A stretch of 64,000 bases of DNA from Candidatus Nanohaloarchaea archaeon. GTDB lineage: Archaea > Nanohalarchaeota > Nanosalinia > Nanosalinales > Nanosalinaceae. The stretch spans positions 248,001-312,000 of the forward strand of contig CP046106.1 of NCBI GenBank assembly GCA_013343275.1, in the 5' to 3' direction. Position 1 is the first letter of the stretch. Every line of letters starts with the position of its first letter. The notes beneath the pieces are model-generated. The model was not told the origin of the DNA, searched no databases, and worked only from the letters and a program-made list of their open reading frames with translations. Shown one piece after another: positions 1 to 64,000 of this stretch. The position numbers and the translations under genes are program-made.

Positions 1-508
1 TCTGATCTGTAATTATGTCCATATAGCCTTCCTGGTTATTCGGTTCCGCTGATACCGCGAACTCTGGAGAGTAATGTTCTTCGAAGAGGTAGCCAGCGCC
101 GTTGAACCCGCCTTTTTCCTCGTCTGAGACTATCATCAGGCCTACGCTTGGTTGCTTATCTTTCAGATCCTTCATTACCTGCATGAGTGCGGCGACTCCT
201 GCCTTCATGTCGCCTGTTCCTCTACCATAAAGCTTTCCATCTTCTCTTTCTGGCTGGAACATTTCATCTGGTGCCTCTATTACGTCGATATGGCCGTGCA
301 GCATCAGATCAGGATTGTCATCGCCGAAAGTGATAACCATGGAAGGGATGCCCTCATTTTCATGTCTGTTGACCTCGAACTCTGGTTCGGAGAAGTAGTC
401 CTCGATAAAGTCCAGGCACCTGTTTATCTCCTTCAGGTCGTCGTTTGTGGATTTGAACTTCACAAGTTCCTCGGTAAGTTCCAGTATCTGGTCCTGTTTA
501 TCGGCCAT
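1..508 (-). CDS. M20-family metallopeptidase/deacylase, N-terminal part (runs off window)
   Basis: Reading from the ATG at 508 down to base 1 gives 169 open codons. The product carries the M20 (ArgE/DapE/ACY1/CPG2) metal-site signatures: HGHIDV near residue 71 (His73 and Asp75), GRGTGDMKAG near 95 (bridging Asp100) and SDEEKGG near 128 (general base and metal Glu pair). These are zinc-dependent amidohydrolases of the cytosol that deacylate amino acids or cleave dipeptides. The substrate cannot be told from the N-terminal half; succinyl-diaminopimelate, acetylornithine and LysW-lysine hydrolases all share these motifs. The dimerisation domain and C-terminal ligands lie outside the window. Confidence 0.88.
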   Translation of the reverse strand, partial: MADKQDQILELTEELVKFKSTNDDLKEINRCLDFIEDYFSEPEFEVNRHENEGIPSMVITFGDDNPDLMLHGHIDVIEAPDEMFQPEREDGKLYGRGTGDMKAGVAALMQVMKDLKDKQPSVGLMIVSDEEKGGFNGAGYLFEEHYSPEFAVSAEPNNQEGYMDIITDQ

Positions 509-560
509 ACCCAGTTATTACCGGAGAATTGTCTTAAATTTTCAGGAACAAACATGTAGT

Positions 561-821
561 ATGGAATTTGACTGGTTTGACCAAGCAGTTGACTATGCGG
601 AAGAAGAGTACGGAGAGCTCGAGGGCCGTGAGTTCGAGGCATCTGTCAGAAAATCTCTTTCAGCACTAGGTTTCGACACAACCTTTGTCCAGGATGTAGA
701 ACTTGATGAAGGTGTTGTCAACAGTTACCGGGTTGAAACCGATGAAGGAGATTACAGGATCGCAGTTCACAGAGATCAGTCTGAAATAGAGATCTATGAT
801 AGGCCTGACCATCTGGCGTAA
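561..821 (+). CDS. Small acidic hypothetical protein (86 aa)
   Basis: The ATG at 561 is preferred over the longer open frame from 447, because the extension is antisense to the M20 gene and because an AT-rich box (cttaaattt, about 532-540) sits about 25 bp upstream, as expected for a leaderless archaeal mRNA. The product is very acidic, starts MEFDWFDQAVDYAEEEYG, and has no membrane segment or known motif that I recognise. It diverges from the M20 gene. Function unknown. Confidence 0.7.
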   Translation: MEFDWFDQAVDYAEEEYGELEGREFEASVRKSLSALGFDTTFVQDVELDEGVVNSYRVETDEGDYRIAVHRDQSEIEIYDRPDHLA

Positions 822-853
822 AAGATAAATTTCTCATTCCTTCATTATTCTGC

Positions 854-1231
854 ATGAGCTCTCAAAAAGAAGCCGGAAATACTTTTGAAAGAGTTATAGA
901 TGCCGCACCAGACACGCTCTACGGCGATTACTCTGATGTAAGTGATCTTGAGGACAGGTACGTGATTTTCGAATATAAGGATATTGATGAAGGCATCAAT
1001 GTAATTTCCTCCGAGGAGATTGGAATGATTCTCGAGGCCGGAGCTGCGAATGACCAAGAATTTCCTCTTTTCAGAGGTATCGAGGCCAGCGAAGGATATG
1101 TCAGAAATGCCCTGGAGAATGGAGAGGGACTGATGGCTGCAAGAATAAGAGAAGGAGAAATTGATGATGCAGGTTACATGATTGAAGAAGGAGAGCTGAA
1201 AGGCCTCATGACCTTCGAATCAACTAACTGA
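854..1231 (+). CDS. Acidic hypothetical protein (125 aa)
   Basis: A 125-residue soluble acidic protein beginning MSSQKEAGNTFERVID. An AT-rich TATA-like stretch (aagataaattt, about 823-833) lies about 27 bp before the ATG, supporting this start and leaderless transcription. I recognise no domain. Its 3' end overlaps the convergent GNAT gene by 12 bases. It lies 32 bases after the 86-aa gene on the same strand but appears to have its own promoter. Confidence 0.65.
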   Translation: MSSQKEAGNTFERVIDAAPDTLYGDYSDVSDLEDRYVIFEYKDIDEGINVISSEEIGMILEAGAANDQEFPLFRGIEASEGYVRNALENGEGLMAARIREGEIDDAGYMIEEGELKGLMTFESTN

Positions 1232-2401
1232 AACATTTCTCACCCCTTCTACCGGTCCCTGCCCATGATCGCTGTATTCGGTGCCTGTGGCTTCAAGTGC
1301 TTCCTCAGCGGAATCGATTAACTGGATCTCACCGGTTCCGTCTTTATGGAACTGATAACCCATTGCATCGCTGACCTCATCACCGTAGTTAATGGCCTCT
1401 GGGCTGTATCTTTCTGGGTTAAATCCGGCATCGGAAAGCCTGTCTGCGACATCCCATGCTGACTGATGGTTGGCATCGAACTCTACGCCAACCCAGCGAA
1501 TGCTGTCGTCTTCAAGGGCCTGTTCAATGCTGTAGGCCTCGTCCTCCTCGCTTTCTTCAACCTGCTTTTCTGGGTCAAGTGCCGACATGACATCGTCAAG
1601 CGAATGTTCTCCTCCGTGGAGGATGCGGAAGCTGGCCATCTCACCGGTTTCATCGTCGTAGGTCTTCTGCTCAACTCGGTAACCCGTATCGGTAGAGCCT
1701 CCGGAACCCACTTCAAACTCTCTGGCCACACGCTCATCACGCTCCTCGTTTAAACTGGAGTGCACGTGATCCACTAGGCCTATATTCTCGTCAGTTACGT
1801 AGACCTCTCTGGAGTTCTCACCGGTGTACTCAAAGTTGCCGTCAGGATAAACCATAGGAACAACTGTCTCACGGCCTTCTCCAGCGAATACCTCAGGGTA
1901 CTTGTTCAGGCTGACTCCTTCAGGTACTGCTCCCTTCTTTTCATGGCCGTGCTGAGTCTTCGCATGAACAGAGGAGACAGGATGGGTAACATACCTGTCG
2001 GCGTCGGACTGTCTAGCTGTTTCAACCCTCTGATCCACGAGGTCCTGGTAGAAAGGTGCGCCATCCATTTCCTGAAACTCTGGATCCAGAACAATCCCTC
2101 CGAACTCGGCCTCATGGCCATCACGGTGATACTTTACAGATCCTGTACCGACAACAGTATCCTCCGGTATTTCTTCGCCTTCAACTTCTTGGCCTCCCGC
2201 TACTTCAACTACAAAGTTATCGCTGCCTTCTCCAGGGATTACTTCTTCCTCAACCATTTCAGGGTCTGTGAAGGCCACGAAAGGATAGTCCTCGTAGACT
2301 GCGTTGTAAGCTCCTGCTATGCCTTCGGCATCGAGTTCCTGTTCTCGGGCAGGTCTTACTTTGTACTCTACTGATTTCTGTTCTTGCTCCAAGTAGGCCA
2401 C
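1220..2401 (-). CDS. GNAT-fold N-acetyltransferase-like protein with C-terminal extension
   Basis: 393 residues from a GTG start at 2401. The N-terminal half has the layout of a GNAT acetyltransferase: an early helix (EGIAGAYNAVYEDYPF, residues about 27-42), then the strands VVGTGSVKYH and AEFGGIVLDPEF (about 84-110) that would form the acetyl-CoA-binding core, and a helix after DGAPFYQDLVDQRV. The C-terminal 180 residues are acidic and include IRWVGVEFDAN, possibly a second small alpha/beta domain. Acceptor unknown. The pyrophosphate-loop motif Q/RxxGxG/A is not clear, so the assignment rests on the general pattern. Confidence 0.62.
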   Translation of the reverse strand: MAYLEQEQKSVEYKVRPAREQELDAEGIAGAYNAVYEDYPFVAFTDPEMVEEEVIPGEGSDNFVVEVAGGQEVEGEEIPEDTVVGTGSVKYHRDGHEAEFGGIVLDPEFQEMDGAPFYQDLVDQRVETARQSDADRYVTHPVSSVHAKTQHGHEKKGAVPEGVSLNKYPEVFAGEGRETVVPMVYPDGNFEYTGENSREVYVTDENIGLVDHVHSSLNEERDERVAREFEVGSGGSTDTGYRVEQKTYDDETGEMASFRILHGGEHSLDDVMSALDPEKQVEESEEDEAYSIEQALEDDSIRWVGVEFDANHQSAWDVADRLSDAGFNPERYSPEAINYGDEVSDAMGYQFHKDGTGEIQLIDSAEEALEATGTEYSDHGQGPVEGVRNVSVS

Positions 2402-2631
2402 CTATAGCTGCTGTTTTCTTGCTGATTTTTGCCTGTTTGTGCGTTGCGTCGTGTTGTAATGATGTGTTGTAGTGTCATTGAATTTCACCTCAAAAAGCAG
2501 AATGAGACTGTAGAGGTCTTTAGCTCTACAGAATCAGGATAATCAGCAGGATAATAGAAATACCGGGTGCTAGCTGATCAAGATCTGAAACAGAATTAAA
2601 GCTTTGAGAGTCAAGGCTAGAGGTGAAGCTA

Positions 2632-2709
2632 TTACTTAGTCTGTAGAACGCGGCCACCCTTCTCGAGCTGGCCTTCAATAAAGCGTCCACCCGTGATTGC
2701 CTTGGACAT
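2632..2709 (-). CDS. Candidate leaderless 25-aa microprotein
   Basis: An ATG at 2709 opens 25 codons (MSKAITGGRFIEGQLEKGGR..., ending QTK). A perfect AT palindrome TTTTATAAAA at 2731-2740 is centred about 27 bp upstream of the A of the ATG, exactly where a TATA box for a leaderless transcript should be. A GGAGGT touches the ATG directly, too close to act as a normal ribosome binding site. The peptide is basic and glycine-rich, unlike its acidic neighbours. I do not recognise a family. Confidence 0.45.
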   Translation of the reverse strand: MSKAITGGRFIEGQLEKGGRVLQTK

Positions 2710-2730
2710 ACCTCCAGTTAGGTGATTACT

Positions 2731-2740
2731 TTTTATAAAA
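2731..2740 (-). promoter_or_regulatory. TATA box TTTTATAAAA for the 25-aa ORF
   Basis: Ten-base AT palindrome centred 27 bp before the ATG at 2709. Because it is palindromic it could drive transcription either way, but the psmB start is more than 110 bases away on the other side. Confidence 0.5.
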
Positions 2741-2854
2741 ATTCTGCTTAACAGGCCGTTGTGGAGGAGTTCCACATACCTATTTAAAGATAAGAGAGGA
2801 ATCTTTGCTTAGTAAGTTTTAATCCGTGAAAGTTTTTCTCGGGGATGATTTATA

Positions 2855-3505
2855 ATGGAAAATAACCAGGTTCAGACGAAACAGGACATGGACGAATTCA
2901 AAACAGGCACGACTACAGTAGGCCTAACAACCGATAAAGGAGTTATTCTGGCAGCTGACCGGAGAGCCTCAATGGGAAGGCTTACAGCTTCAAAGTACGC
3001 CAAGAAGGTGTACAAGCTGGATGATCAGATAGGCCTTACAATCGCTGGCAGCGTCGGCGATGCACAGAAGATTATCAGGATGATGAGAAGCCAGCTCAAC
3101 CTGCACAAGCTGGAGACCAAGGAACTATCGGTCAAAGGAGCAGGAACACTACTATCTAACATACTACACGGCCACAAAGCCATGCCGTTCTTCAACCAGT
3201 TCATCATGGGCGGAATCGAAGACGGCGAAGGAGTACTCTACGACCTGGATCCTGCAGGAGGCCTGATGAAGCACGAGAAGTTCACGGCCACAGGATCAGG
3301 AAGCCAGATGGCTTACGGAGTACTTGAGGACAAGTTCGAGCAGGAACTTGACCACGAAGAGGGAAGAAAACTTGCAACACGAGCAGTACAGGCTGCCATG
3401 GAAAGAGACACGGCCTCCGGAAACGGAATTATGGTAGCTGAAATCACTGAAGACGATGGCTACCGTGTGCTCGATGAGAAAGAAGTAGAGAGCGTTCTCA
3501 AGTAA
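2855..3505 (+). CDS. psmB: Proteasome subunit beta
   Basis: Catalytic beta subunit of the archaeal 20S proteasome, 216 residues. An 18-residue propeptide ends in Gly18, and autocleavage would expose the nucleophile Thr19 (motif GTTTVG). Mature Asp17 and Lys33, which complete the Ntn-hydrolase site, correspond to Asp35 (AADRRAS) and Lys51 (KYAKKVYKL). The GSGSQMAYG loop, SGNGI and the rest of the fold are intact, and length is normal for the family. An ATG ten bases upstream is in another frame. No alpha subunit is in the window. A pyrimidine-rich stretch follows the stop. Confidence 0.96.
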   Translation: MENNQVQTKQDMDEFKTGTTTVGLTTDKGVILAADRRASMGRLTASKYAKKVYKLDDQIGLTIAGSVGDAQKIIRMMRSQLNLHKLETKELSVKGAGTLLSNILHGHKAMPFFNQFIMGGIEDGEGVLYDLDPAGGLMKHEKFTATGSGSQMAYGVLEDKFEQELDHEEGRKLATRAVQAAMERDTASGNGIMVAEITEDDGYRVLDEKEVESVLK

Positions 3506-3545
3506 AGGTTTTCTCTCCTCTTCTCTTACTTACTTTATTTTACTT
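3506..3545 (+). terminator. T-rich terminator after psmB
   Basis: The 40 bases after the psmB stop are a run of T/C tracts (ttttctctcctcttctctt, then actttattttac). U-rich tracts of this kind are the cis signal for archaeal termination; no hairpin is needed. Confidence 0.55.
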
Positions 3546-3608
3546 CAGGGTTTCGTACATAGCAAAAATTTATACAGAGTATTTTAACAACAAGGATTGA
3601 TTGACAAA

Positions 3609-5489
3609 ATGGAAGAATTAGAAGACGTAAAAGATCTTTTGCCTCCAGAGGCAAACGTAGACGACATAAAGTTCGAAGCATCAGACATAGTGGTATACAC
3701 AAACAGCAAGGATTTTTTCCTTGACCACTCAGATGTTATTCAGGACATAGTATCACAACTCAAGAAAAGAGTGGAAGTAAGGCCTTCATCAAAGCTTTTC
3801 AACAAGCCTGAAACCGCTGAAGAGAAACTCAAAGAAATAGTTGAAGAAAGAGAAGAAGCAGAGATCGACAATGTTATCTTCCAGCCTTCTCTCGGAAAAA
3901 TGATAATCAGGACACCAAAGCCTGGAGCAATTATAGGTAAGAAAGGCTCAGGCCTACAGGAAATCAAGGAGGCAACTCTGTGGGCTCCGCAGGTGGAAAG
4001 AGTGCCATCTATCAGCTCGAAGGTAGTTGATAGAGCCAGAGAGCTGACTGTAGAGGATCCAGAGTTCAGGAAAGACTTTCTGCATGAAGTTGGGCAGAAG
4101 ATCCGCCTTGACAAATCTGTCGGCGATGAATGGATACGTACCTCCGCTCTAGGAGGGTTCCGGCAGGTAGGAAGAAGCTGTGTGCTTCTGCAGACCGAGG
4201 AATCTAACGTACTGATGGATGCAGGAATCGACCCTTCCGCAGAGTCAGGCACGAAGGACAACTATCCTTTCCTCAACGCGCCTGAACTTGATCTTCAGAA
4301 CCTTGACGCAGTAGTTCTCAGCCACGCACACATGGACCACGTAGGAATGATCCCATATCTATACAAGATGGGATACGACGGGCCTCTGTACTGCACCAAG
4401 CCTACAAGAGACCTGATGATCATGCTGTGCCTAGACTACATAGGCCTGGCACACAGCGAGCGAGCAAAAGCCCCTTACGACTCCTCAGACATCAAAAAGG
4501 CAGTTAAAAGAACAATCACACCGGATTATGGAGAAGTTACCGATATCACCCCTGATATGAGGCTTACGCTGAAGAACTCAGGCCACATTATCGGATCAGC
4601 TCTCTGCCACATCCACGTGGGTGAAGGCCTGCATAATCTGCTTTACACTGGAGACTACAACTACGATCAGACTGAGATGTTGAGTCCTGCAGATACTAAC
4701 TTCCAGCGTGTTGAGACCATGATTACGGAGTCTACTTACGGAGGCCGTGATGATAAACAGACGCCGAGAGATGAGGCGAACAAGAAGTTCCTCTCCCGGG
4801 TAAAGCAGACTCTGAATAAGGGGGGCAAGGTTATCGTACCTGTCTTCGCCGTAGGACGTTCGCAGGAGGTTCTAGGTCTCTTGGCTGACGAGATGAAGAG
4901 AGACTACTTTGACTACAATGTCTACATTGATGGCATGATTAACGATGTGAACGCTCTCCACACAGCCTATCCAGAGTTCCTCTCGGAGAAGGTACAGAAC
5001 AAGGTCCTGGATGAGGAATCGCCGTTCCTTATGGACAATATCAAGACTATCGGAAGCCATCAGGAGAGAAAGGAAGTGTATGAAGACGATTCCTGTATAA
5101 TTCTGACAACTTCAGGATCTATCACAGGCGGACCGGTAATGTCCTACCTTCAGGAAGAGGCCGAAGCTCCAGAAAACACTCTGATCTTCGTAGGTTACCA
5201 GTTCGAGGGATCGCTTGGACGTAAGATCCAGTCCGGAGCAGACAGGGTTGAGATTAACGGAGAGAAAGTTGATGTCAACCTTGATACCTACACGGTTTCA
5301 GGTTTCTCTGCACACAGTGACCGGCAGCAGATCATCAACTTCTCCAAGAACCTGAGAAGCACACCTAACAAGATCCTGACTAACCACGGCGAGGAATCAA
5401 AATGCTTCTCACTCGCCAGCTCCCTGCACAAGATCCTGAACATCGACACGTCAGCACCTCAGAACCTGGAGACAATCCGACTTAACTAA
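3609..5489 (+). CDS. fttA: KH-domain beta-CASP ribonuclease, aCPSF1/FttA termination factor
   Basis: About 626 residues matching archaeal aCPSF1, the nuclease that cleaves nascent RNA to terminate transcription. Order: two N-terminal KH domains (about 1-140, second with GAIIGKKGSGLQEI), metallo-beta-lactamase domain with LSHAHMDHVG (about 236-245) and TGDYN, then the beta-CASP insertion and closing VSGFSAHSD and NHGEES motifs. The frame is also open from a TTG at 3597, but the ATG at 3609 gives the usual family start MEELEDVKDLLPPEA. A TATA-like ttatac at 3569-3575 serves either start. It is the expected partner of the U-rich terminators seen in this window. Confidence 0.95.
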   Translation: MEELEDVKDLLPPEANVDDIKFEASDIVVYTNSKDFFLDHSDVIQDIVSQLKKRVEVRPSSKLFNKPETAEEKLKEIVEEREEAEIDNVIFQPSLGKMIIRTPKPGAIIGKKGSGLQEIKEATLWAPQVERVPSISSKVVDRARELTVEDPEFRKDFLHEVGQKIRLDKSVGDEWIRTSALGGFRQVGRSCVLLQTEESNVLMDAGIDPSAESGTKDNYPFLNAPELDLQNLDAVVLSHAHMDHVGMIPYLYKMGYDGPLYCTKPTRDLMIMLCLDYIGLAHSERAKAPYDSSDIKKAVKRTITPDYGEVTDITPDMRLTLKNSGHIIGSALCHIHVGEGLHNLLYTGDYNYDQTEMLSPADTNFQRVETMITESTYGGRDDKQTPRDEANKKFLSRVKQTLNKGGKVIVPVFAVGRSQEVLGLLADEMKRDYFDYNVYIDGMINDVNALHTAYPEFLSEKVQNKVLDEESPFLMDNIKTIGSHQERKEVYEDDSCIILTTSGSITGGPVMSYLQEEAEAPENTLIFVGYQFEGSLGRKIQSGADRVEINGEKVDVNLDTYTVSGFSAHSDRQQIINFSKNLRSTPNKILTNHGEESKCFSLASSLHKILNIDTSAPQNLETIRLN

Positions 5490-5545
5490 ATCTGGGTAGA
5501 AGGCCGTAAAAAGGTTTAAATCGGCCGCTCCCACATACTTTTTCT

Positions 5546-5815
5546 ATGGTTTGGGAAGTTAAATGCGATAACTGTGGAGAGATAATTAACTGGGGCGGCA
5601 GCGAGCCCTCGGAATACGGGCCTGGAGAGCCGGAGGACATGAAGCTTGGAGATGAGGCCATCAAGTTCGATGGAAATACTTACTGCAAGGCCTGTGTCAA
5701 GAAGTTTGTCAAGTTCGGCGTAGGAGATGTAGAAGATCGGGTTGACTACCTGGAAGATAGAATGAAAGAAGTTATGCAGGCTGTGGGCATGGAGAAAAGC
5801 ATTAACCCTGAGTAG
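5546..5815 (+). CDS. Small zinc-ribbon-like protein (89 aa)
   Basis: Starts MVWEVKCDNCGEIINWGG and contains a second pair YCKACVKKF (about residues 46-54), so two CxxC pairs that could bind one zinc. The C-terminal third is a charged amphipathic helix (VDYLEDRMKEVMQAVGM). A TATA-like ggtttaaatcg (5512-5522) lies about 28 bp before the ATG. No family is recognised beyond the zinc-ribbon pattern. It faces the DUF1059-like gene, with the two stops adjacent. Confidence 0.7.
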   Translation: MVWEVKCDNCGEIINWGGSEPSEYGPGEPEDMKLGDEAIKFDGNTYCKACVKKFVKFGVGDVEDRVDYLEDRMKEVMQAVGMEKSINPE

Positions 5816-5998
5816 CTATTTTTCGCTTATTCTTTCTCTAATCTCTTCTTCCTCGTAAGCAATATTGGGTTCAGCTACGTCCGTTTCTCGCTGGAGATCG
5901 TGTTCTCTTTTCATGTGCTGCTTGGCCAGCTGGACAAGGTCGTCTTCGTTTTCGTCCTCGAACTCCATGCCGCATATATCACAGGTAAACTGCTTCAT
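5816..5998 (-). CDS. DUF1059-like small zinc-finger protein (60 aa)
   Basis: MKQFTCDICGMEFEDENEDD followed by AKQHMKREHDL: two Cys (CxxC) and two His (HxxxxH) arranged as a single C2H2-type finger, the pattern of DUF1059/C2H2 small archaeal proteins. The tail is acidic. These proteins are of unknown function. A similar but shorter finger protein is encoded at 51332-51427. Confidence 0.7.
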   Translation of the reverse strand: MKQFTCDICGMEFEDENEDDLVQLAKQHMKREHDLQRETDVAEPNIAYEEEEIRERISEK

Positions 5999-6052
5999 CA
6001 GAAGTTACACCGACACTATTTATCGTCTCAACTAACTAAAAACTTGCGAAAC

Positions 6053-6820: not shown

Positions 6821-6897
6821 GAAATAACTTTCATGGCTTCCTAATTAATAAGTCCACTTGCTCTACAGTTTTTAACACGGATAACTAAACAATAGGT

Positions 6898-7389: not shown

Positions 7390-7398
7390 GTGGCTTAA

Positions 7399-7722: not shown

Positions 7723-7759
7723 ATCATTTATTTAGATTTTTACATACGGAATACTTATT

Positions 7760-8440: not shown

Positions 8441-8481
8441 CGGAAAAATAGGTAGAAGAAAAAATGTAATAAGGCCTACAT

Positions 8482-8593: not shown

Positions 8594-8604
8594 CCGATTT
8601 AACA

Positions 8605-8618: not shown

Positions 8619-8627
8619 ATTTACTGT

Positions 8628-11713: not shown

Positions 11714-12625
11714 ATGAAAGTAGAGAAAGCAGTCAAACAGGTACTCGGCAGAGAACCAGAAAAAGTTGAAGAGATTGCCGAGGGATTGAAACATGATACC
11801 TATTGGGCAACGGTAGAAGGCAAGGATTACATAGTGCAGTTCTCCGGCGACGACTACGATGACCATGCATCCCTCAGACACTGCCTGAAGATGTACGAAC
11901 TTCTCTCAGACACCGTCAAAGTTCCACACGCAGCGACCAGTGAAGTCCAGGAACTTGATGGAGAAAGATACATCATAGTAGAAAAACTGGAAGGACAATC
12001 AGGAGAAAAAAGTATCTCGAAGGAGAAAACACGGAAAGCAGGGAAAGAACTGGCCAAGATCCACAACCACACAACACTCGACAAAGCAGGCTGGATAGAG
12101 TTCAGAGATGAAGGTTACGAAATAGTGGAGTTCGAGGAAGGAGGCCTGAAAGAACATTTCCTCACACAGCTTGAAGAAAAACTACAGATACTCAGGGATG
12201 AGGGCCTGGAAGAGCTCGCTGACAAAGTAGACAGTTTCATCGAGGAAAGAGAAGAAGTCTGGCCCGAAAACTTTACACCTGTGATCTGTCACGACGACTT
12301 CACACCCGACAACACCATCTACCTCAACGGAGAAGTCAACGGAATAATCGACATAGACTACGCATTCTCAGGCCTCGACGCACGTAACCTAGTAAAGGCC
12401 GCCAACGCATTCTGGATGAATGATCCTGTCAAAGACTGGCCTCGCGACAAGTTTTACCAAGGCTATTCTGAGGAAAGGCCTCTGCCTGAGAATTTTGATG
12501 AGTTAGAGAAGTTCTTCCGTGTAGAAACACTGGTCCAAACAGTGGCCTCACTGATTGATATGGATGTTTTGACGGAAGATCAAATAGAATTTTATGAGGA
12601 AGAAATTATGGAAGAGCTAGAATAA
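11714..12625 (+). CDS. Aminoglycoside phosphotransferase (APH)-family kinase
   Basis: 303 residues with the choline/aminoglycoside kinase fold. The catalytic loop is CHDDFTPDN (about residues 196-204; HxDxxxxN with catalytic Asp), followed by the metal-binding GIIDIDYAF (about 213-221). The N-lobe includes DTYWATVEGKDYIVQF and EKLEGQ. Such kinases phosphorylate small hydroxylated metabolites such as sugars, choline-like molecules or antibiotics; the substrate cannot be told. Standalone gene. Confidence 0.82.
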   Translation: MKVEKAVKQVLGREPEKVEEIAEGLKHDTYWATVEGKDYIVQFSGDDYDDHASLRHCLKMYELLSDTVKVPHAATSEVQELDGERYIIVEKLEGQSGEKSISKEKTRKAGKELAKIHNHTTLDKAGWIEFRDEGYEIVEFEEGGLKEHFLTQLEEKLQILRDEGLEELADKVDSFIEEREEVWPENFTPVICHDDFTPDNTIYLNGEVNGIIDIDYAFSGLDARNLVKAANAFWMNDPVKDWPRDKFYQGYSEERPLPENFDELEKFFRVETLVQTVASLIDMDVLTEDQIEFYEEEIMEELE

Positions 12626-12654
12626 TTACCGCTAGACAGTAACCTCTTCTGTCT

Positions 12655-13155
12655 TTAGAAGTTTACTGATTTTGATATAGTCTCAACTCGTCTTACTATT
12701 GCCATTAGAAGTAGAGAATAATGAATTAGGGTAGAAAATAGTACAAAAGAAAGTACTGTACTTGAATTGGTTACTTTTATCATTAAAATTATTCCTAGGA
12801 GCATAATAACCAAGAAAATACTGGTTGTAGTATAATATCTAAGACTCCTAAAAAATTGTTCAAAATTGTTCTCAAATTCGGCCCTATTTTTGTCTTCAGG
12901 GACGTTAAGATCTTCTAAACAAACTTTGTTAGTTAAGGAAAAAATAGCGTTGATGGAGAACCCTGCTACTATAGCTAGTGTTGTGCCTAGATAATTCAGA
13001 ACCTCTGACTTTAATTCAATAAAATGAGTCATTATTGCTCCTAAAATAACAGGAAGAACTATAAACCAAGAGATCAGATATAGATAACTCTCTTCATTTA
13101 TTATTTCTTGGTACGTGTTCTTGATATTAGATTTAGGCGATATAAAGCTGCTCAT
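12655..13155 (-). CDS. Four-helix membrane protein of AT-rich cassette (166 aa)
   Basis: Four hydrophobic segments (about residues 28-46, 56-75, 112-130 and 133-152) separated by a charged cytosolic loop. No family recognised. The ATG overlaps the stop of the 327-aa gene upstream (ATGA), so the two are translationally coupled. The DNA is clearly more AT-rich than its neighbours and lysine/asparagine/isoleucine-rich codons dominate, which suggests acquisition. A membrane effector paired with a soluble sensor is one possibility, but that is an inference. Confidence 0.65.
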   Translation of the reverse strand: MSSFISPKSNIKNTYQEIINEESYLYLISWFIVLPVILGAIMTHFIELKSEVLNYLGTTLAIVAGFSINAIFSLTNKVCLEDLNVPEDKNRAEFENNFEQFFRSLRYYTTTSIFLVIMLLGIILMIKVTNSSTVLSFVLFSTLIHYSLLLMAIVRRVETISKSVNF

Positions 13156-14135
13156 TCTTTTGAACTCGGGAAATTGGTAATTTTTTCATCCTGGTAAGAA
13201 CTTATTAAGTCTTCAATTAGATTCTCAGAGAATTTAGATAAACTTCCATCCCTAACTCTTCCTTTTGTAATTCTAACTTCAGGGTCGCTAGGTTTGAGTA
13301 TATCTACCATTTTAACTGCATCACCCTCATCTAGTGAAACTGTTCTTTCTGATCCTGATTCATTAACTACTGCTCCAACATCCAGAATATTAAAATCATA
13401 TGCTCTCGAGAAACCAATTTTTTCATCGTTGCGAATCTTATCTATTAAATCACTACAGGAGAAAAAACCTCCTCCAGGATCGGGTTTTATCTCTATAGTT
13501 TGTCTGGTAATTTCGCTAGGCCCTCTTTCATCATTTATTCTTTCTTCATGATTAAGATTGAGATCGGGTCCTTTTTCCGTCTCTAGTTTAAATCTCAGTA
13601 ATTCATCGGCTTTTCTCAACTGCCTAACTATATCCTTGGTAAAAAGACGGTTTACTTCAACTTTTACTTTATTGCTGCCAATAAAAGCAGAAAGTTTTCT
13701 TTCAAACTCTGTCTTCGCCCCCATCCCCTTAAACTGTTCCATCACTAACACTGCAGATTCTTTGGGCAGATTGTTTGATCTTGTAACCTGGAAAAAGAAA
13801 TCAATCTCCATAGAATCCTTGACTCCAACTGCATTTTCTTCTCTATTTTCGTTATCTATATTGAATCTGTCTTGTTCGTAACCCCATTCTCCTGTCCTAA
13901 TTCTACCTATGACATTTTTGTTAGACTTATGGAAGTATTTTGCCGAGAACGTCTTTTTCCGATCTTTATCGGCATCAGAGGCTCCCTTATAGTTCTCTAG
14001 GAACTCTGCCATGAAATCCTCAAATGAGTCATAAGCATACAACTCAGGTATATTGTTGGTCCTCTGTAGGTTATAATACCAGCCATTAGGTTCATGCAGC
14101 TTTATCTCATAGGGGACTATTTTATGGGTAGACAA
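13152..14135 (-). CDS. Soluble protein of AT-rich cassette (327 aa), function unknown
   Basis: TTG start at 14135 with a ribosome binding site GAGGAGA about 6 bases upstream, so not leaderless as most genes here. Starts MSTHKIVPYEIKLHEPNGWY. FFFQVTRSNNLPKESAVLVM near the centre suggests an alpha/beta core. No catalytic signature that I can name. Upstream partner of the four-helix membrane protein (4-base overlap). AT-rich, without a single AGGCCT in the 1.5-kb cassette, although that palindrome is very common elsewhere in the window. Probably horizontally acquired. Confidence 0.65.
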   Translation of the reverse strand: MSTHKIVPYEIKLHEPNGWYYNLQRTNNIPELYAYDSFEDFMAEFLENYKGASDADKDRKKTFSAKYFHKSNKNVIGRIRTGEWGYEQDRFNIDNENREENAVGVKDSMEIDFFFQVTRSNNLPKESAVLVMEQFKGMGAKTEFERKLSAFIGSNKVKVEVNRLFTKDIVRQLRKADELLRFKLETEKGPDLNLNHEERINDERGPSEITRQTIEIKPDPGGGFFSCSDLIDKIRNDEKIGFSRAYDFNILDVGAVVNESGSERTVSLDEGDAVKMVDILKPSDPEVRITKGRVRDGSLSKFSENLIEDLISSYQDEKITNFPSSKE

Positions 14136-14158
14136 GGATATCTCCTCATAGCAGCGGG

Positions 14159-14479
14159 CTAATCTGATGCCACTCCTACTTTTGTATCGTTATAGGCCGT
14201 GATTTCTACTTGCTGGGTTTCAGGTGTTACTCCTGTGTCTAGTTCTGTTTGTTGGAACTGGTCGTAGTCTGAGCCTTCTGTTTCTCCTAGGTATCTAACA
14301 TGCCTATCGTCGTATCCTAGTTCTGTGTCGTCTTCTACTAGTTTGGCCTGTGTGGTTCCTTGGGCCATTGGTGTGCCTGGTGTCAGCATTGTTTTTACTT
14401 CGTCTGCGCTTGGGATTTGTTCCATTTCTGTGAGGTGGAATAGTTTGTACTGTCCAAGGTCGAGTTGTTTGTCTTCCAT
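14159..14479 (-). CDS. Acidic hypothetical protein downstream of nrdJ (106 aa)
   Basis: Soluble, acidic, starts MEDKQLDLGQYKLFHLTEME. No motif recognised. It lies 136 bases downstream of nrdJ on the same strand, with two overlapping hairpins between them, so it may be either a distal member of the nrd operon or separately expressed. Confidence 0.6.
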   Translation of the reverse strand: MEDKQLDLGQYKLFHLTEMEQIPSADEVKTMLTPGTPMAQGTTQAKLVEDDTELGYDDRHVRYLGETEGSDYDQFQQTELDTGVTPETQQVEITAYNDTKVGVASD

Positions 14480-14530
14480 AGTTGATCGAAAGCATTTCCA
14501 ACCGGTTAGATTGAAGAAATGCTGAAAGTT

Positions 14531-14563
14531 GACAGGAAATTAAAGGCTCCTGTCAGGCCTTTT
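14531..14563 (-). terminator. Two mutually exclusive hairpins downstream of nrdJ
   Basis: GACAGGA (14531-14537) pairs perfectly with TCCTGTC (14548-14554), and AAAGGC (14543-14548) pairs perfectly with GCCTTT (14558-14563). They share bases, so only one can form. In the nrdJ mRNA the AAAGGC/GCCTTT hairpin comes first and is followed by AATTT, like a terminator; the other stem would disrupt it. Confidence 0.4.
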
Positions 14564-18264: not shown

Positions 18265-19188
18265 ATGAGGAACTCTGCTGACGACGCCCAGAGAGTAATC
18301 GACCAGGCAACCGCAAAACTTGGAAACTTTGATGTCGACATCGAGGCCGTTCGTGAGCAGAAACCCGAAGGCAGCATGCAGACCCTAGATTCTATGGACG
18401 AACTCATGGAGCTCGCAGAATCCAGTATGCCGGACTCCGATATCGATATATCACGTGATATAGACACGGAAATAATGGATGAAGTATATTCTGCCCTGAG
18501 AACCAACGCCGATAGAAGAAACGATGGCTACAACCAGTTCAGAGGCCTTGCCGCTGTGGAGAAGGGAATCAATCCGGCAATGATTACAGGAGCAAAGCCC
18601 GAGACTGTAGATTCCTGGTACGAAAAGTTCAGGGACGCAGGCCTGACATACACCGAGAATGGCGATGAAATGCTTACTACAGAAGGAGAAATCTTCATGG
18701 ACGAGGCCTACGGTTTCCTGGACGCCATAGGTAAAGACCAGGATACACGGGAGGTACAGGAGTACATTGCGGAGGCCTTCGGCAGCTTCAGCAGAAGGGC
18801 CTCGAACCAGGAGGTTCCATTGACAGGTTTCATATATGCTGCGGACGAAGAGCCTTCAACCAGTCGGATAGCGGAGGCCTCCGATGTCTCCAAGAGAACA
18901 GTGTACAACTGGATGGAGAAATGGAACGGTGGGGAAGGCCTGGGATTCATCCGCGGGGAGCCTCGGGACCGCAAGCTTACTGGCAGAGGCCTTCGTGCTT
19001 ATGAAATGGTGGAGAACCAGCACCGTGCACTTGACGTGGCCTCGGAGATGAAGGCCTCGATGATCGAGGAGTTAGAAGAAGATAGAACTGGTTCTGATTC
19101 TCTGCCGTTTATTCCAGGTAATCAGCAGCTTGTGGAGCGGTACCTTGACGATTCATCGCTTGCAGAGAAGTATATGGAGCGAAACTGA
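18265..19188 (+). CDS. HTH-containing putative regulator (307 aa)
   Basis: Acidic helical protein with two candidate helix-turn-helix units: GINPAMITGAKPETVDSWYEKF (about 99-118) and TSRIAEASDVSKRTVYNWME (about 198-217), the latter followed by a wing-like GFIRGEPRDRKLTGRG. No known ligand domain. A TATA box tttatttaata (18233-18243) lies about 27 bp before the ATG. It diverges from nrdR. DNA binding is inferred from the HTH pattern only. Confidence 0.65.
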   Translation: MRNSADDAQRVIDQATAKLGNFDVDIEAVREQKPEGSMQTLDSMDELMELAESSMPDSDIDISRDIDTEIMDEVYSALRTNADRRNDGYNQFRGLAAVEKGINPAMITGAKPETVDSWYEKFRDAGLTYTENGDEMLTTEGEIFMDEAYGFLDAIGKDQDTREVQEYIAEAFGSFSRRASNQEVPLTGFIYAADEEPSTSRIAEASDVSKRTVYNWMEKWNGGEGLGFIRGEPRDRKLTGRGLRAYEMVENQHRALDVASEMKASMIEELEEDRTGSDSLPFIPGNQQLVERYLDDSSLAEKYMERN

Positions 19189-21036: not shown

Positions 21037-21070
21037 ACAAATAAATACAGTATTCTCTCATTTTCTTTCT

Positions 21071-42909: not shown

Positions 42910-43140
42910 TGGGGCCGGCAGGACTTGAACTTGCAACCTTCCGCTATCTCCGGAACTTCTGGAAGTTCCATCACCACGGAGCATTCCAAGGAATGCACCT
43001 CAAGATTTAATCATCGGCCATAAGGCCTCATTCCTCCAGATCCGTAACAGAACAGAGATGGTTCAGTGATCCATCAGGTACTGTCGACCTGCTACGGGAG
43101 TCGCTGGAGGCGGACGCTCTGCCAATTGAGCTACGACCCC
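42910..43140 (-). tRNA. trnW: tRNA-Trp (CCA) with 158-nt intron
   Basis: 5' exon 43140-43104 (positions 1-37) and 3' exon 42945-42910 (38-73), no encoded CCA. Acceptor GGGGTCG pairs with CGGCCCC; D stem GCTC/GAGC; anticodon stem TCCGC/GCGGA; loop CTCCAG+A gives anticodon CCA. T loop TTCAAGT; the T stem GCAAG/CCTGC has one A-C mismatch. The intron lies after position 37, the usual archaeal site. CTCC of the loop can pair with GGAG at the intron 3' end, as in the central helix of a bulge-helix-bulge splice motif. Confidence 0.9.
42946..43103 (-). ncRNA. tRNA-Trp intron, candidate box C/D methylation guide
   Basis: The intron contains GGATCTGGAGGAATGAGG. Its CTGGAGG is complementary to positions 31-37 (CCTCCAG). 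Taking ATGA right after it as a (variant) D' box, the fifth base upstream pairs with C34, the residue methylated in haloarchaeal tRNA-Trp by its own intron. C-box-like GTGATGG, CTGATGG and CGATGAT also occur in the intron. Box matches are imperfect. Confidence 0.55.
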
Positions 43141-58647: not shown

Positions 58648-58968
58648 ATGGATACAGAAACAGTAATTTTCGGGAAATGGGACAACCACGGCAACAGCAA
58701 GAACCTCAGGCTTTCAGCACAGAACAGCCAGAAAGTAGACGAAGAAGTAGAACTGGTCTTCAAACACGGCAACAAACACGTACGCACAGTAGACGACATC
58801 GCCACACTCAAGAAAGTAATACAGTTCACAGCTAACCAGAAAGTAGAAGGCCTCACAATCGAAAAAGCCCACAAAGCAGTCAAACTATACAACAGCTACC
58901 ACAGAATAGACATGAACCCGGAAGAAGCCATCAAAGGCTGGAAACTAGCTGATAAGATAAAAGACTAG
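58648..58968 (+). CDS. Hypothetical protein converging on mcrC-like gene (106 aa)
   Basis: MDTETVIFGKWDNHGNSKNL with a beta-rich N-terminal half and helical C-terminus (LTIEKAHKAVKLYNSYHRID). More basic than its neighbours. Overlaps the end of the McrC-like gene by 4 bases. No family recognised. Confidence 0.62.
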   Translation: MDTETVIFGKWDNHGNSKNLRLSAQNSQKVDEEVELVFKHGNKHVRTVDDIATLKKVIQFTANQKVEGLTIEKAHKAVKLYNSYHRIDMNPEEAIKGWKLADKIKD

Positions 58969-60317
58969 ATAGAGATTTTCTCAGAAATCAAATCCTCAAT
59001 ACTATCCTCTAACTTGGAGGCCTCCACAATTCTGATAGGGCCGTTCTGCTCTTCCAAGTTCTGAGTATCTCTGCCTTCTTCAAAGTCCTGGACCACGAGA
59101 AGGCCTGATTTCTCTCCGCCGAATACTTCCGGCTTATTCAGGAACTCATCTTCATCCCTCAGGAACGCCAGATATTCCAGGGCCTCTTTGATGCCTCTCT
59201 TGATGGTTTTCTCGTTGGTGGAGTTCTTGACCTCTGCGATGAAGTACTCTCTGTCCTCTGAATCTTTATCGATAATTTCGACCAGTATGACATCAGGCCT
59301 TCCTGTGACTTCTCTTGTATCTTTGTCAAAGTAGTCACTGATGATTTCACGGGACTTTAACTCTACTTCTTCAGGCCTTGAGTAAGGTTCATCGCTGTCT
59401 TTTTCAGGATCGAATTTGAACTCTATATCGAGATCTCGGGCGGAGCTGTCGTGGTATACTGCAATCTCTTTTTCCTCGCTTTCCATTGTGGCGATTCTCT
59501 GTGATCCGCTCTCGATGGTTGCCAGGTTGAAGTCCTCGGATTCTATATTATCTATAGTAGATATGAACCTGAACAGGACGAAGAGTTCGAGAAGGGTTTC
59601 CTCATCATCCGGTGTTATAGCAGTGTCATTGAGTAGTTCTGTGAGTTCATCCTCGTTGCCGTCAAATATCCTGTTTCGCTTGTTCAGTAAGCCGGCCGCT
59701 TCCCTGTAGATCTGCTGCCGGGAATTTTCCGCAGTGTTAAGCATTCTATTGGTTGGTTCGTACTGTTCTGGTTTGCTGATTCTCTTCACGTGGACGTCTC
59801 GCTCGAAAATTCTTTCCATTTCCTCCACGAGATCTTCCTCTTCCTTCCATCTATCGTTCACCCAGGCATAATCCCTCTCAAAGTATTCACGGGCCTCCTG
59901 CAAAGTCTCGTAAATTACCGAGAGCAATCTCTTTAGAACAATATTTTCATCTATGTCGTAATGCTCTGTCCTGTTATCTGTAACAAAAAGAGAGTTATCG
60001 CCGGGATTCCCGGAGTACCTCTCCTTGATGGTTGAAGACCAGTTAATCCTGCCCTCAACCGTCCCTCTCCTGGTCTTGGAGACGTTTTCCGTCTGTGTCT
60101 TGATGCTGCGAATCCTTTCCGGAAGTCTCTGGACAAATTCGACAACCTCAGGTTTCAGGATAAAATGCAGATCCATGAGAAGCTCGTAATCCTCGAATCT
60201 CTCATCGAGGCCTTCATGTTTCAGATCTGCCGCTAACTGATCCTCCGGAAACTCTCCATGCATCACATAGGATACAATATCATCCGTCAGGCCGTCAATC
60301 AGTTCAGTTTTCTTCAT
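58965..60317 (-). CDS. mcrC: McrC-like nuclease subunit (DUF2357/PD-(D/E)XK)
   Basis: 450 residues. The central part (VEGRINWSSTIKERY, YDIDENIVLKRLLSVIYETL, NDRWKEEEDLVEEM) follows the DUF2357/McrC pattern, and the C-terminal nuclease core shows GRPDVILVEI (Asp342) and YFIAEVKNS (Glu362-x-Lys364). McrC-type subunits cut DNA when driven by the McrB NTPase. Its start overlaps the end of the McrB gene by 14 bases. Confidence 0.82.
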   Translation of the reverse strand: MKKTELIDGLTDDIVSYVMHGEFPEDQLAADLKHEGLDERFEDYELLMDLHFILKPEVVEFVQRLPERIRSIKTQTENVSKTRRGTVEGRINWSSTIKERYSGNPGDNSLFVTDNRTEHYDIDENIVLKRLLSVIYETLQEAREYFERDYAWVNDRWKEEEDLVEEMERIFERDVHVKRISKPEQYEPTNRMLNTAENSRQQIYREAAGLLNKRNRIFDGNEDELTELLNDTAITPDDEETLLELFVLFRFISTIDNIESEDFNLATIESGSQRIATMESEEKEIAVYHDSSARDLDIEFKFDPEKDSDEPYSRPEEVELKSREIISDYFDKDTREVTGRPDVILVEIIDKDSEDREYFIAEVKNSTNEKTIKRGIKEALEYLAFLRDEDEFLNKPEVFGGEKSGLLVVQDFEEGRDTQNLEEQNGPIRIVEASKLEDSIEDLISEKISI

Positions 60318-62802
60318 CGAACTTTACCTGCAGCATGTCTCGAGCGACATTTCTCAACCTCGTCTCCTCAACGTGTTCGGATTTGGCAATCTCCTTCACG
60401 ATATCTCCATTATTCCTGACTCCCTCCAGCTGCGGGAATACAAAGTTCAACACTGCTTCTGTGCCAGAGGAGCCTTGAGCAACAAAGCTGAGCATATCCT
60501 CTGCGATTGCCGGGCCAATCTTTCTACCTTCAACTGCATTGTTGGTTCTCTCCCAGATATCGGCGACAGTATCAATATCCTCTCCATCTGCATTAATTTC
60601 CCATTTTTCATCGTAGCTGCGAAGTAGCTCATTATCGATATCTTCCGGAGCTTCTACACGAATAAAGGCAAATCTTCTCATGAAGGCATAACTCATCTCG
60701 TAGAGGGAAGTTTTGTCGTACGAGTTCATCGTCGCCAGAATCTTCCAGGACTCGGGAACAACGTACTGATTTTCATCAGGCCGCTCTGAAGCATCTTCAT
60801 GCTTACCTGGAATAACCTCGATCTCCTCACCGTTATCAGCTGTGTAAGGCAGCTGGACCTTCTGACCGGAAAGAACCGTGAAAAGCTGTCCAAAGGCCTT
60901 GTCGATATCTGAACGATTGATCTCATCAACCACAAGCAACTCGTTTTTCAGAGCTCTCTCATCATCCTTGAACCTCTTCAGAATCTGACCAGAGTTAAAC
61001 TCGAGATCGCCATCACCTTCCTTCTCAGGCATAAAACCTCCAACAGTATCAAAAGTCGACCAGTCAGCAGTAGCAGTAGTCAACTGATGACCTGTGAAGA
61101 AATCCGTACCCTCTAGTTCCTCGGCAACAGCCTCGGCAATCTCGGTCTTGCCTGTGCCCGGAGGCCCTGTAAAGATAATATGCTTACCCGAGTTAAGCGC
61201 AGCCTCAACCTGCGAAACAATACTCTCTCCCTGCCCATCAGGATAGTAAAGGCCTCTCTCCTCGAGAATGTTTTCTGGGAGATCGATGTCAAGCTTATCT
61301 TCTATCTCAATATCAGTGCTGTGAATCCTGTCAGCGCTCTTACCACTGATAGCTTTAATCTGAGAATCATCTTCTGAACTGTAATCCAGGAAATCTGTCT
61401 CAGGACTTGCAGGCCCTGTCTTTTTCTCCTGCAGGAATTTTCTGACGCTGCCATACCTGTCTCTGATGCTACTAATCCCCTGATCATTCAGGGACTGGAA
61501 ACCCATGAGATTGTAGTTATCGGAGTAGTCTGCCAGATCATTGATTTCGTCCTGTGACAGATCCATCTTGAACGGTTCCTTCAGGTAGATAATATACTTC
61601 CACGGATCACCGTCATCGTCTGGCCATAGCTCTTTTGCAAGTTCAGTATTTGTCTCAGTATCAATAATTTCAGCACCGTAGATGTACTCTCCCTGCCTGT
61701 AGAAGAGCAGGAAATCTCCTGCTTCAATCTTCTTCCAGCTGGACTTGGTTCCCTCACGGTTACCCCATACAGAAACCACGTCATGATCAAAACTCCGATC
61801 AGAGGACTCATTAACCTTTTCAGTCGGAACACGCCGTATAACAGTATCTCTCAAATGTGCGTATGCATCATCATTGCTGCATGGAGCAAGGAAAAGCTGA
61901 GGTTCGTCTTTTTCTGAATAATTTACCTCGTTTTTCACGGAATCACCTGCATTATCTAGAAATAGACTTGATATCTCAGCTATATCTCTTTCCAGCTCGT
62001 CCTCATCCATAGAGCCTGCCTGATATTCTTTGTAATAAACTGTCGCAGGACCGTATTTTTCACCTATTCCACTAGCATCTAATTTGATTGGACCAGGCTT
62101 GAAATCCTCGAGATCATATTTTTCTCTTAACTCTGCACCTTTTTCTTTGAGATCAGAATTATTTCTATTTCCCTGAGCATTTTCTCTTTTGACTCTCTGA
62201 TTTAGAGTGAGATATACTTTATCCTCTTGAGGATCAATTAGAAAAACTGGATTTGTGCCATGTTCTAGGGTCTCGCCATCTCTATTTCTTATACTGATCC
62301 ATGGTATACTCGACCAATTACCTTGACCAGCCGACCCTTCAGTTTCAACGTCGAAACTATTGTAATCAGATGAAACTCTGTTAGCGATATGTTTTAGTAG
62401 TGCAGGACCTTTTTCCTCTATAAGTTTGTAAACTTCTTTCTCGCTATTTAATTTTCCTAAATCTTGGACATCATATTTACTAAGGATTTCTTCTAAGGTG
62501 TCTACGAAAAGCGATGTTGAATAATCTCGTACGTTAAAAAGCTGTATATCCAGATTTTTCAGAAATCTCTCAGCGTCATTTGTCGTGAAATCGCTTTTGG
62601 AGAAGCCTTCACTCTCTATCTTCTCAATATTCTCGAAAACGTCCTTTACAGGTTTCCTTTCTCCATTTAATTCGATGTAATGCCATGGAGAATAATTATA
62701 TTCACTAAATTCGGCCTTGGTTTCGTTAAAAGCATTTTCGACATCTTCAACTGTTATCGTTAACTCGACACCATTAATAGAGCTAGTAAACTCATCCGCC
62801 AT
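60304..62802 (-). CDS. mcrB: McrB-like AAA+ restriction NTPase with DUF3578 and EVE-like domains
   Basis: 832 residues. Residues about 100-210 match MrcB_N/DUF3578 (GQGNWSSIPWISIRNRDGET then FLIDPQEDKVYLTLNQRV). About 300-420 is an EVE/PUA-like reader (LFLAPCSNDDAYAHLRDTVI; WKKIEAGDFLLFYRQGEYIY). About 520-832 is the McrB AAA+ core: HIIFTGPPGTGKTEIAEAV (Walker A about 545), LLVVDEINRSDIDKAFGQLF (Walker B about 624), ILATMNSYDKTSLYEMSYAF and FMRRFAFIRVEAP. Type IV restriction system that attacks modified DNA together with the downstream nuclease. The first 270 codons are AT-rich and lack AGGCCT. Confidence 0.88.
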   Translation of the reverse strand: MADEFTSSINGVELTITVEDVENAFNETKAEFSEYNYSPWHYIELNGERKPVKDVFENIEKIESEGFSKSDFTTNDAERFLKNLDIQLFNVRDYSTSLFVDTLEEILSKYDVQDLGKLNSEKEVYKLIEEKGPALLKHIANRVSSDYNSFDVETEGSAGQGNWSSIPWISIRNRDGETLEHGTNPVFLIDPQEDKVYLTLNQRVKRENAQGNRNNSDLKEKGAELREKYDLEDFKPGPIKLDASGIGEKYGPATVYYKEYQAGSMDEDELERDIAEISSLFLDNAGDSVKNEVNYSEKDEPQLFLAPCSNDDAYAHLRDTVIRRVPTEKVNESSDRSFDHDVVSVWGNREGTKSSWKKIEAGDFLLFYRQGEYIYGAEIIDTETNTELAKELWPDDDGDPWKYIIYLKEPFKMDLSQDEINDLADYSDNYNLMGFQSLNDQGISSIRDRYGSVRKFLQEKKTGPASPETDFLDYSSEDDSQIKAISGKSADRIHSTDIEIEDKLDIDLPENILEERGLYYPDGQGESIVSQVEAALNSGKHIIFTGPPGTGKTEIAEAVAEELEGTDFFTGHQLTTATADWSTFDTVGGFMPEKEGDGDLEFNSGQILKRFKDDERALKNELLVVDEINRSDIDKAFGQLFTVLSGQKVQLPYTADNGEEIEVIPGKHEDASERPDENQYVVPESWKILATMNSYDKTSLYEMSYAFMRRFAFIRVEAPEDIDNELLRSYDEKWEINADGEDIDTVADIWERTNNAVEGRKIGPAIAEDMLSFVAQGSSGTEAVLNFVFPQLEGVRNNGDIVKEIAKSEHVEETRLRNVARDMLQVKFDEEN

Positions 62803-62844
62803 AGGATCGTATTGATTACCACAGTTAAGAATTTGTTGAAACGT

Positions 62845-63201
62845 TTAGGATCTCCATTCCTCAAGGCCTTCAGTTATTTCCTCTGCTGTTTCTTCATCAA
62901 ATCTTTCCCTGTTTTCGTCCAGCTTCTCCAGAACTGCCTCTTCAATATCTATGTCCAGTCGCTGGGCCATGCTCAGGGAGTACAGGATTACATCTGCCAG
63001 CTCCTCTCTAACTCCAGCCATTAATTCCTCGTCCTGTTTGATTTTCTTGACAGGTACATTGTCTTTCCACTGGAAGTGCTCCATCAGTTCTGAGGCCTCT
63101 ATGGAAATCGACATGGCGATGTTCTTCGGTTCATGGAACTTCTCCCAGTCACGTTTCTCCTTGAACTCTGCGTATTCCTCCTGAAGTCTGTCAATTCCCA
63201 T
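62845..63201 (-). CDS. MazG-like nucleotide pyrophosphohydrolase (dCTPase type)
   Basis: 118 residues: FHEPKNIAMSISIEASELME (ExxE) and EELADVILYSLSMAQRLDID (ELxDVxxY) give the two acidic metal motifs of the all-alpha NTP pyrophosphatase family. Acts as a house-cleaning enzyme on non-canonical dNTPs. Directly upstream of the McrBC locus on the same strand. Confidence 0.9.
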   Translation of the reverse strand: MGIDRLQEEYAEFKEKRDWEKFHEPKNIAMSISIEASELMEHFQWKDNVPVKKIKQDEELMAGVREELADVILYSLSMAQRLDIDIEEAVLEKLDENRERFDEETAEEITEGLEEWRS

Positions 63202-63351
63202 ATCTCATTCTTGGTTTCAACTCTTTACTGTTTTACGGAAATCTGGCCAAGATCTGAAAAACTTTCCGAAGTTGTTTGATATGTAGGGATCGAGGTGCAA
63301 GAAGGATTACTGGATGATAGGGTAGAAAGCGGAGAGTATCTAATACTATTT

Positions 63352-64000
63352 TTATGAGAATCTGTCGATGCTTTTCTGCTTTTTAGGGAGCTTGTCTCCC
63401 TTTACGAATCTGTATGCTCTTTCCAGCCAGTAGAGATCTTCTGAAAACTCAAGGTTATCTTCTTTTCTTTGCAGATATTTCACTCTGACACTGAAGGATA
63501 GATATGGCATCAGCATTCCCTGGCTGGGGTTTATCTGCAGCATGACCTCGATATCTACAGGATATCCAGAATGTCTATCTGAATAGTCTAGTTTCAGAAG
63601 TTGTTGTTCTACATCGTAGTTTTTGTCAATGTCTTCTCTTATGTTCTCCATCACACTCGAGTAGGATAGCTTGTCAATCTCTACAGAGCCATTGTTTTTG
63701 TTGTCCTGTAGGCGGACAATTTGCGTTTGTATTCCTTGTTCTTCTGCAAGTTCTTCTCTGTTTGATAGTTTATTCTCTGAGAATCGGAATATGTCATAGT
63801 CGAAAGGTGTTTCATCTTCAAACAGTTCTGTGAATAAGTCTTGGACGGATTTTATTTTGAAAGTTCTATCTCTGGCTATTAGTATTACATTATCCTCAGG
63901 CACTGGCTTGAATAGAAATGTGCTCTTAGTCTTTCTTTCCGTCTCTGAGTCTTCATCTACTCCTAGCATTCTGTTGTATCGTGAAGTTGGTCTAGTTGTT
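63352..64000 (-). CDS. Hypothetical protein, probably continuing past the window end
   Basis: ATG at 63969 gives 205 residues (MLGVDEDSETERKTKSTFLF), but the frame stays open upstream to base 64000 with plausible protein (TRPTSRYNR), so the true start is probably outside. Alpha/beta pattern with no recognised family. Next to the MazG and McrBC genes. Confidence 0.6.
   Translation of the reverse strand, partial: TTRPTSRYNRMLGVDEDSETERKTKSTFLFKPVPEDNVILIARDRTFKIKSVQDLFTELFEDETPFDYDIFRFSENKLSNREELAEEQGIQTQIVRLQDNKNNGSVEIDKLSYSSVMENIREDIDKNYDVEQQLLKLDYSDRHSGYPVDIEVMLQINPSQGMLMPYLSFSVRVKYLQRKEDNLEFSEDLYWLERAYRFVKGDKLPKKQKSIDRFS

Follow-up and report, generated by a model that had tools for sequence, protein, structure and literature searches.

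Why should a six-letter palindrome, AGGCCT, occur about twice in every kilobase of a nanohaloarchaeal chromosome? The question was raised by a stretch of 64,000 nt, referred to here as the window, for which a first-pass annotation made from the letters alone had noted a strong excess of AGGCCT and had suggested a DNA-level role such as a methylation mark, an uptake sequence or a chromosome-organising site. Below we follow the word from the window to the genome, to the proteins and to the phylum, and then weigh what might drive it. Our overall reading is that one nanohaloarchaeal lineage carries AGGCCT, with a preference extending to RAGGCCTY, as a highly iterated palindrome that acts on double-stranded DNA.

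The word and its sites

The window holds 129 copies of AGGCCT, about 2 per kb, against expectations of about 14 from base composition and of 16, 43 and 76 from Markov models of first, second and third order. Successive 10-kb blocks contain 20, 25, 25, 21, 17 and 16 copies, and the final 4 kb contains 5; the hand counts of the annotation (about 20 in 1-10000 and about 25 in 20001-30000) are reproduced at 20 and 25. Among the 4,096 hexamers, AGGCCT ranks first for over-representation in the window at Markov orders 0-3, and over 464 kb of the genome it leads again at orders 1-3 (z = 99, 51 and 23). It had been argued that the excess would fall if a model of order 3 or more predicted about 2 copies per kb; order 3 does not, and order 4 does (O/E 0.99 in the window), although this prediction is circular rather than a refutation, because the 5-mers AGGCC and GGCCT are already inflated by the AGGCCT sites. 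The excess is also genome-wide: the single contig of 915,886 bp carries 1,803 AGGCCT (1,969 per Mb), compared with 419 of the backwards word TCCGGA. The O/E is 7.2 in this genome (G000) and 16.2 in Nanohaloarchaea archaeon SG9 (G003, CP012986). In the part of the literature on archaea that was covered, no earlier report of an AGGCCT excess was found.

GGCC with other flanks had been described as much rarer. This is right in so far as AGGCCT accounts for 129 of the window's 391 GGCC, but it has to be tempered, since half-sites (NGGCCT) are enriched in the genome as well, 2.6- to 4.7-fold in G000 and its rich relative G001, with core one-offs at 0.6-1.0x. The outer one-offs of G000 stand at 3.8x (CGGCCT), 2.9x (GGGCCT) and 2.6x (TGGCCT), and those of SG9 are weaker (1.1-1.9x). 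One-offs by transversion (AGTCCT, AGCCCT) are no commoner than those by transition, and the alternatives at glycine sites include GGA as well as GGT. Between genes the word is preferably preceded by a purine and followed by a pyrimidine, and in SG9 a T precedes it in 8% of intergenic cases against a background of 30%. SG9 needs the dyad, with A at position 1 in 85% of cases when the far T is intact and in 51% when it is broken, whereas in G000 and G001 the halves are independent and A1 stands at about 55% with the far T intact or broken.

Within the window, 117 of the 129 sites touch predicted genes and 12 are intergenic, and one of the latter falls, as had been noticed from the letters, inside a tRNA-Trp intron. 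The features concerned are as follows.

138, 801, 5688, 8472, 14555, 29094, 33302, 37991, 43023, 51394, 52273 and 56980: AGGCCT outside predicted genes
complement 42908-43141, minus strand: tRNA-Trp(CCA) with a 158-nt intron at tRNA position 39 (ARAGORN; seen only with introns allowed)
43023..43028, no strand: AGGCCT within that intron
18265-19188, plus strand: helix-turn-helix protein, 307 aa, HTH_23 E = 8e-7, 8 AGGCCT
18543..19057: the tightest grouping of sites, with 8 AGGCCT within 515 bp (phases 1 and 2), in the helix-turn-helix gene
12476..14560: longest stretch of the window without AGGCCT, site starts lying 2,079 bp apart

With several hundred genes in play, the cluster at 18543..19057 is probably no more than a chance maximum. 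The helix-turn-helix gene itself was considered as the source of a binding factor and rejected, its cluster density being within chance for a genome this large and its protein having just weak 70-aa matches at another locus of its own genome, in G001 and in SG9.

The annotation had proposed a check on spacing regularity. Intervals between sites proved random (CV about 1.0, range 0.94-1.11), with no helical or regular spacing beyond the 3-bp codon period, except that distances of up to 20 bp are under-represented. Pairs 6-20 bp apart occur about half as often as in within-gene permutations in three genomes (6 vs 13, 8 vs 16 and 29 vs 47; z = -2.4, -3.0 and -3.9), values that come from small counts and from a permutation that does not control local amino-acid context. 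Diminishing returns between sites act mainly within about 20-40 bp, and beyond about 40 bp each position behaves independently. Along the genome the density is nearly Poisson, apart from a few near-empty islands (genome coordinates).

135,001-140,455 (135-140 kb): GC 0.38, AbiTii-like gene, 0 AGGCCT
390,001-400,620 (390-400.6 kb): copper genes, 1 AGGCCT in 10.6 kb
785-790 kb: almost no AGGCCT

The second of these encodes a C2H2 zinc finger with a weak copper-binding domain, DsbA-like proteins, DUF305 and a P-type ATPase, and was presumably acquired recently; recently acquired islands are without AGGCCT.

Coding independence and the imprint on proteins

When synonymous codons were shuffled in the window genes, which leaves the amino-acid sequence and the codon usage as they are, the 116 sites there fell to 21.9 ± 4.2, with a maximum of 35 in 200 shuffles. 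About half of the genome gave 791 AGGCCT against 155 in such shuffles, the excess being roughly five-fold in each codon phase, and across the genomes tested it was 5- to 8-fold. Coding and noncoding DNA, a comparison the annotation had called for, carry the word at equal density in G000 (1.98 vs 1.97 per kb), and the values for SG9 are 3.92 and 4.37. Window genes use it on both strands and in all three phases, as had been described, with phase-2 sites (xxA GGC CTx) forming the majority of coding AGGCCT. That majority is all that speaks for the excess being a by-product of codon usage or amino-acid composition, an account to which we give practically no credence and which the shuffles, the density between genes and the reversed-peptide controls below refute, just as the annotation had argued.

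The positions at which the protein permits the word (Arg-Pro; [KQE]-Ala-[FLSYCW]; xxA-Gly-Leu) approach saturation: AGGCCT fills 50% of them in G000, 60% in G001 and 74% in SG9, compared with 6% and 4% in the motif-poor genomes SVXNc and G010. In SG9, glycine in the context A|GGN|CT is encoded by GGC in 695 of 748 cases against 29% overall (odds ratio about 30), and alanine in AG|GCN|T by GCC in 441 of 462 against 26% overall. G000 and SG9 belong to different genera with 72% DNA identity, and 64% of G000 sites are also sites in SG9, compared with 14% for other palindromes. Much of this sharing is independent refilling, because 62% of the permitted positions that are empty in G000 are filled in SG9.

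The word also leaves its mark on the proteome. Arg-Pro has an O/E of 1.09-1.62 in rich genomes against 0.73-0.81 in poor ones, Gly-Leu of 1.21-1.54 against 0.94-1.03, and [KQE]-Ala-[FLSYCW] of 1.21-2.11 against 0.94-1.01. The reversed peptides are flat: Pro-Arg shows no split between rich (0.73-0.85) and poor (0.76-1.09) genomes, Leu-Gly stays at about 1 and the reversed tripeptide at 0.83-1.02, so that it is the motif-permitting peptides alone that are raised, 1.5- to 2-fold. In addition, poor relatives conserve the motif-encoded Gly-Leu of SG9 less well than they do Leu-Gly controls (0.45 vs 0.66 and 0.35 vs 0.55). Taken together, the conservation of Gly-Leu and the peptide frequencies therefore show that the DNA-level force is strong enough to fix amino-acid changes, and a force that overrides protein sequence matters for protein-based inference in nanohaloarchaea.

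Distribution and modification genes

The comparison with related Nanohaloarchaeota that the annotation had recommended sets seven AGGCCT-rich genomes, reaching about 4 per kb in SG9 (4,013 per Mb), against 21 of the 28 phylum genomes that hold 32 to 338 copies each (0.05-0.4 per kb). One of the poor genomes, G006, matches Candidatus Nanohalococcus occultus SVXNc. The counts of the rich ones, of which G000, BNXNv and SG9 are complete genomes and G002, G016 and G018 are MAGs, are as follows.

G000, the window's genome: 1,803
G001, matching Candidatus Nanohalovita haloferacivicina BNXNv: 2,466
G002: 3,601
G003, SG9: 4,489
G016: 2,095 (0.6 Mb)
G018: 1,481 (0.5 Mb)
G011: 762

An FttA tree, weakly resolved, places the seven rich genomes in one group of ten (support 91/96), the distribution within which is patchy: the poor genomes G010, G012 and G017 are nested in it, and G002 (rich) and G017 (poor) are sisters with support of 100/99. 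AGGCCT richness has therefore come or gone more than once. Loss appears to be under way in G011, as 8 of 11 sites of G016 aligned to it are gone, mostly through transitions, and none is unique to G011 in this small sample. The FttA gene of G011 (G011:C12, 7009-10590) also carries an in-frame insertion of about 1.7 kb within a 1,225-aa open frame, which suggests an intein in this transcription termination factor. Viral contigs were scanned for triple RAGGCCTY clusters, which gave 93 stretches, and among the 80 examined there was no clear carrier; a virus sharing the word was accordingly set aside.

Whole genomes of 19 members of the family were searched with HMMs for DNA methyltransferases (PF00145, PF01555, PF02086, PF07669 and PF02384). 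Four rich genomes, G000, G002, G016 and G018, hold no convincing enzyme of these five Pfam families; the weak matches there are non-DNA enzymes, one Trm-G10-like and the other about 170-180 aa in length. When 90% of G000 was scanned for motifs, no DNA methyltransferase appeared among the few matches either, of which two read as a probable MscS-type channel and an rRNA-methylase-like protein and the rest are marginal and non-methylase. The methyltransferases of G001 and SG9 differ from each other, and PF00145 enzymes above the cut-off occur only in motif-poor genomes. A DNA-level cause is strongly supported, as the annotation had supposed; of its suggestions, the methylation mark is disfavoured by the four rich genomes, with an uptake sequence and a chromosome-organising site left as candidates. 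The Eco57I-type methyltransferase region of SG9 (G003:C1 490951-491995) appears broken, with a TAA inside the match. In the motif-poor SVXNc, the published methylome has only GDGCHC modified (PMC10266531). The mismatch-repair protein MutS (PF00488) is absent from all 19 family genomes. At its right end the window contains the following genes, the first a candidate for modification-dependent restriction.

60304-62802, minus strand: McrB-like protein (MrcB_N E = 3e-23, AAA_5 E = 2e-13)
58965-60317, minus strand: 450 aa, in the McrC position beside the McrB-like gene, no Pfam match
62845-63201: MazG-like gene adjoining the McrB-like gene

Candidate drivers and known systems

The best explanation that we can offer, tentatively and as a serious possibility rather than a probability, is a DNA-binding factor, specific to the lineage and probably dimeric, that recognizes AGGCCT, with weak selection or biased conversion maintaining its sites. 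The putative factor would bind AGGCCT or its extended form, and each site would arise and persist through a weak pressure acting across the genome, be it selection that favours binding or a conversion that tends toward the word, with log odds of about 1.8 in G000 and about 3.5 in SG9. Such a pressure would fill most protein-permitted positions, change amino acids where possible, and lapse once the factor was lost. A dimeric factor leads one to expect a palindrome with graded specificity, dependence on the dyad (SG9), relaxed outer bases (another genus) and neighbouring sites shut out within about 20 bp, and the deficit of pairs at 6-20 bp is as the footprint of a bound protein would give. The independent half-sites of G000 and G001 fit a strict dimer poorly, and most of these statistics could also arise from a bias in repair or mutation; we infer the factor, its nature, and selection as opposed to mutation. 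If the model is true, specific dimeric binding is expected on AAGGCCTT against ATGGCCAT. For the broader proposition, a methylation-independent motif drive in DPANN archaea in which a gained-and-lost DNA-binding or repair factor forces a palindrome on the genome and remodels the dipeptides of the proteome, we see the scales as level. With related rich and poor genomes that include a cultivated member on each side (BNXNv rich, SVXNc poor), the driver becomes tractable by gene-content comparison, and selection versus drive becomes testable.

A neutral bias, in which a lineage-specific repair or polymerase activity turns near-sites into AGGCCT without benefit, would suit the uniformity of the word over coding and noncoding DNA, phases and genome position, and also the independence of positions beyond about 40 bp. 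We consider it unlikely: the bias is not of deamination type, since one-offs by transversion are just as low and glycine alternatives extend to GGA, two-step paths such as Arg-Pro to AGG-CCT are needed, and MutS is lacking. We hold quite unlikely a methylation-linked iterated palindrome, in which a GGCC or AGGCCT methyltransferase (of an undetected family, host-supplied or recently lost) and repair ratchet near-sites into the word. It has the closest precedent, the over-represented words of cyanobacteria all having a matching methyltransferase (PMC4390886), deviations are biased to the outer bases (2.6-3.8x vs 0.6-1.0x in the core), and methyltransferase transfer between nanohaloarchaeon and host has been proposed (PMC11001535), yet the searches above for methyltransferases and MutS run against it.

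We rate as improbable a DNA uptake sequence, accumulated by uptake drive through preferential import and recombination of AGGCCT-bearing DNA. Like the DUS and USS of Neisseriaceae and Pasteurellaceae, AGGCCT is a short genome-wide word at uptake-sequence density, with dialect-like differences between genera and missing from foreign genes, and its patchy gain and loss and its proteome effect would fit as well. Known uptake sequences are 9-12 nt, asymmetric and not palindromic, however, and AGGCCT is a hexamer palindrome with one preferred base per side; saturation would also be expected at the scale of a fragment, not mainly within about 20-40 bp. Environmental DNA uptake has been suggested for nanohaloarchaea (PMC10266531).

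The binding factor stays our preferred reading, and other known systems can be set beside the word. A Chi-type recombination signal is an asymmetric word with strand bias, whereas AGGCCT is its own reverse complement. Dnd phosphorothioate modification occurs at GGCC in Streptomyces; DndC (TIGR03183, E <= 0.001) is absent from all 19 family genomes, and phosphorothioation was rejected as the cause. The restriction enzymes StuI (AGGCCT) and HaeIII (GGCC) recognize the same words, but restriction sites are typically avoided in genomes, not enriched, whereas AGGCCT is far above expectation in G000 and SG9, and the searches of G000, G002, G016 and G018 turned up no cognate methyltransferase.

The likeness is greatest to HIP1 (GCGATCGC) and the alternate HIPs of cyanobacteria, likewise short palindromes with hundreds to thousands of copies per Mb and extreme O/E, shared by related genomes but lost here and there. 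As there, the palindrome is the top over-represented word (1,969 per Mb, and 4,013 in SG9) and its one-nucleotide deviations fall at the outer bases (2.6-4.7x in G000 and G001, weaker in SG9). In cyanobacteria, a genome in which a word is highly over-represented always has a methyltransferase that can modify it, and a methylation-directed repair ratchet has been proposed for HIP1 (Elhai 2015, PMC4390886); in our genomes we found neither a matching methyltransferase in G000, G002, G016 and G018 nor, in any of the 19, the MutS for such a ratchet. Because the methyltransferase association fails, we describe AGGCCT as HIP-like in behaviour and do not file it as a HIP. What HIP1 does and how it arose has stayed unclear, with methylation as the leading clue, and AGGCCT supplies a similar and denser case, in very small archaeal genomes, without detectable methyltransferase or MutS. 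It differs further in that its host is a DPANN archaeon, its density in SG9 exceeds the 500-2,500 per Mb of HIPs other than rCCGGy (PMC4390886), and its effect on peptide frequencies is demonstrated.
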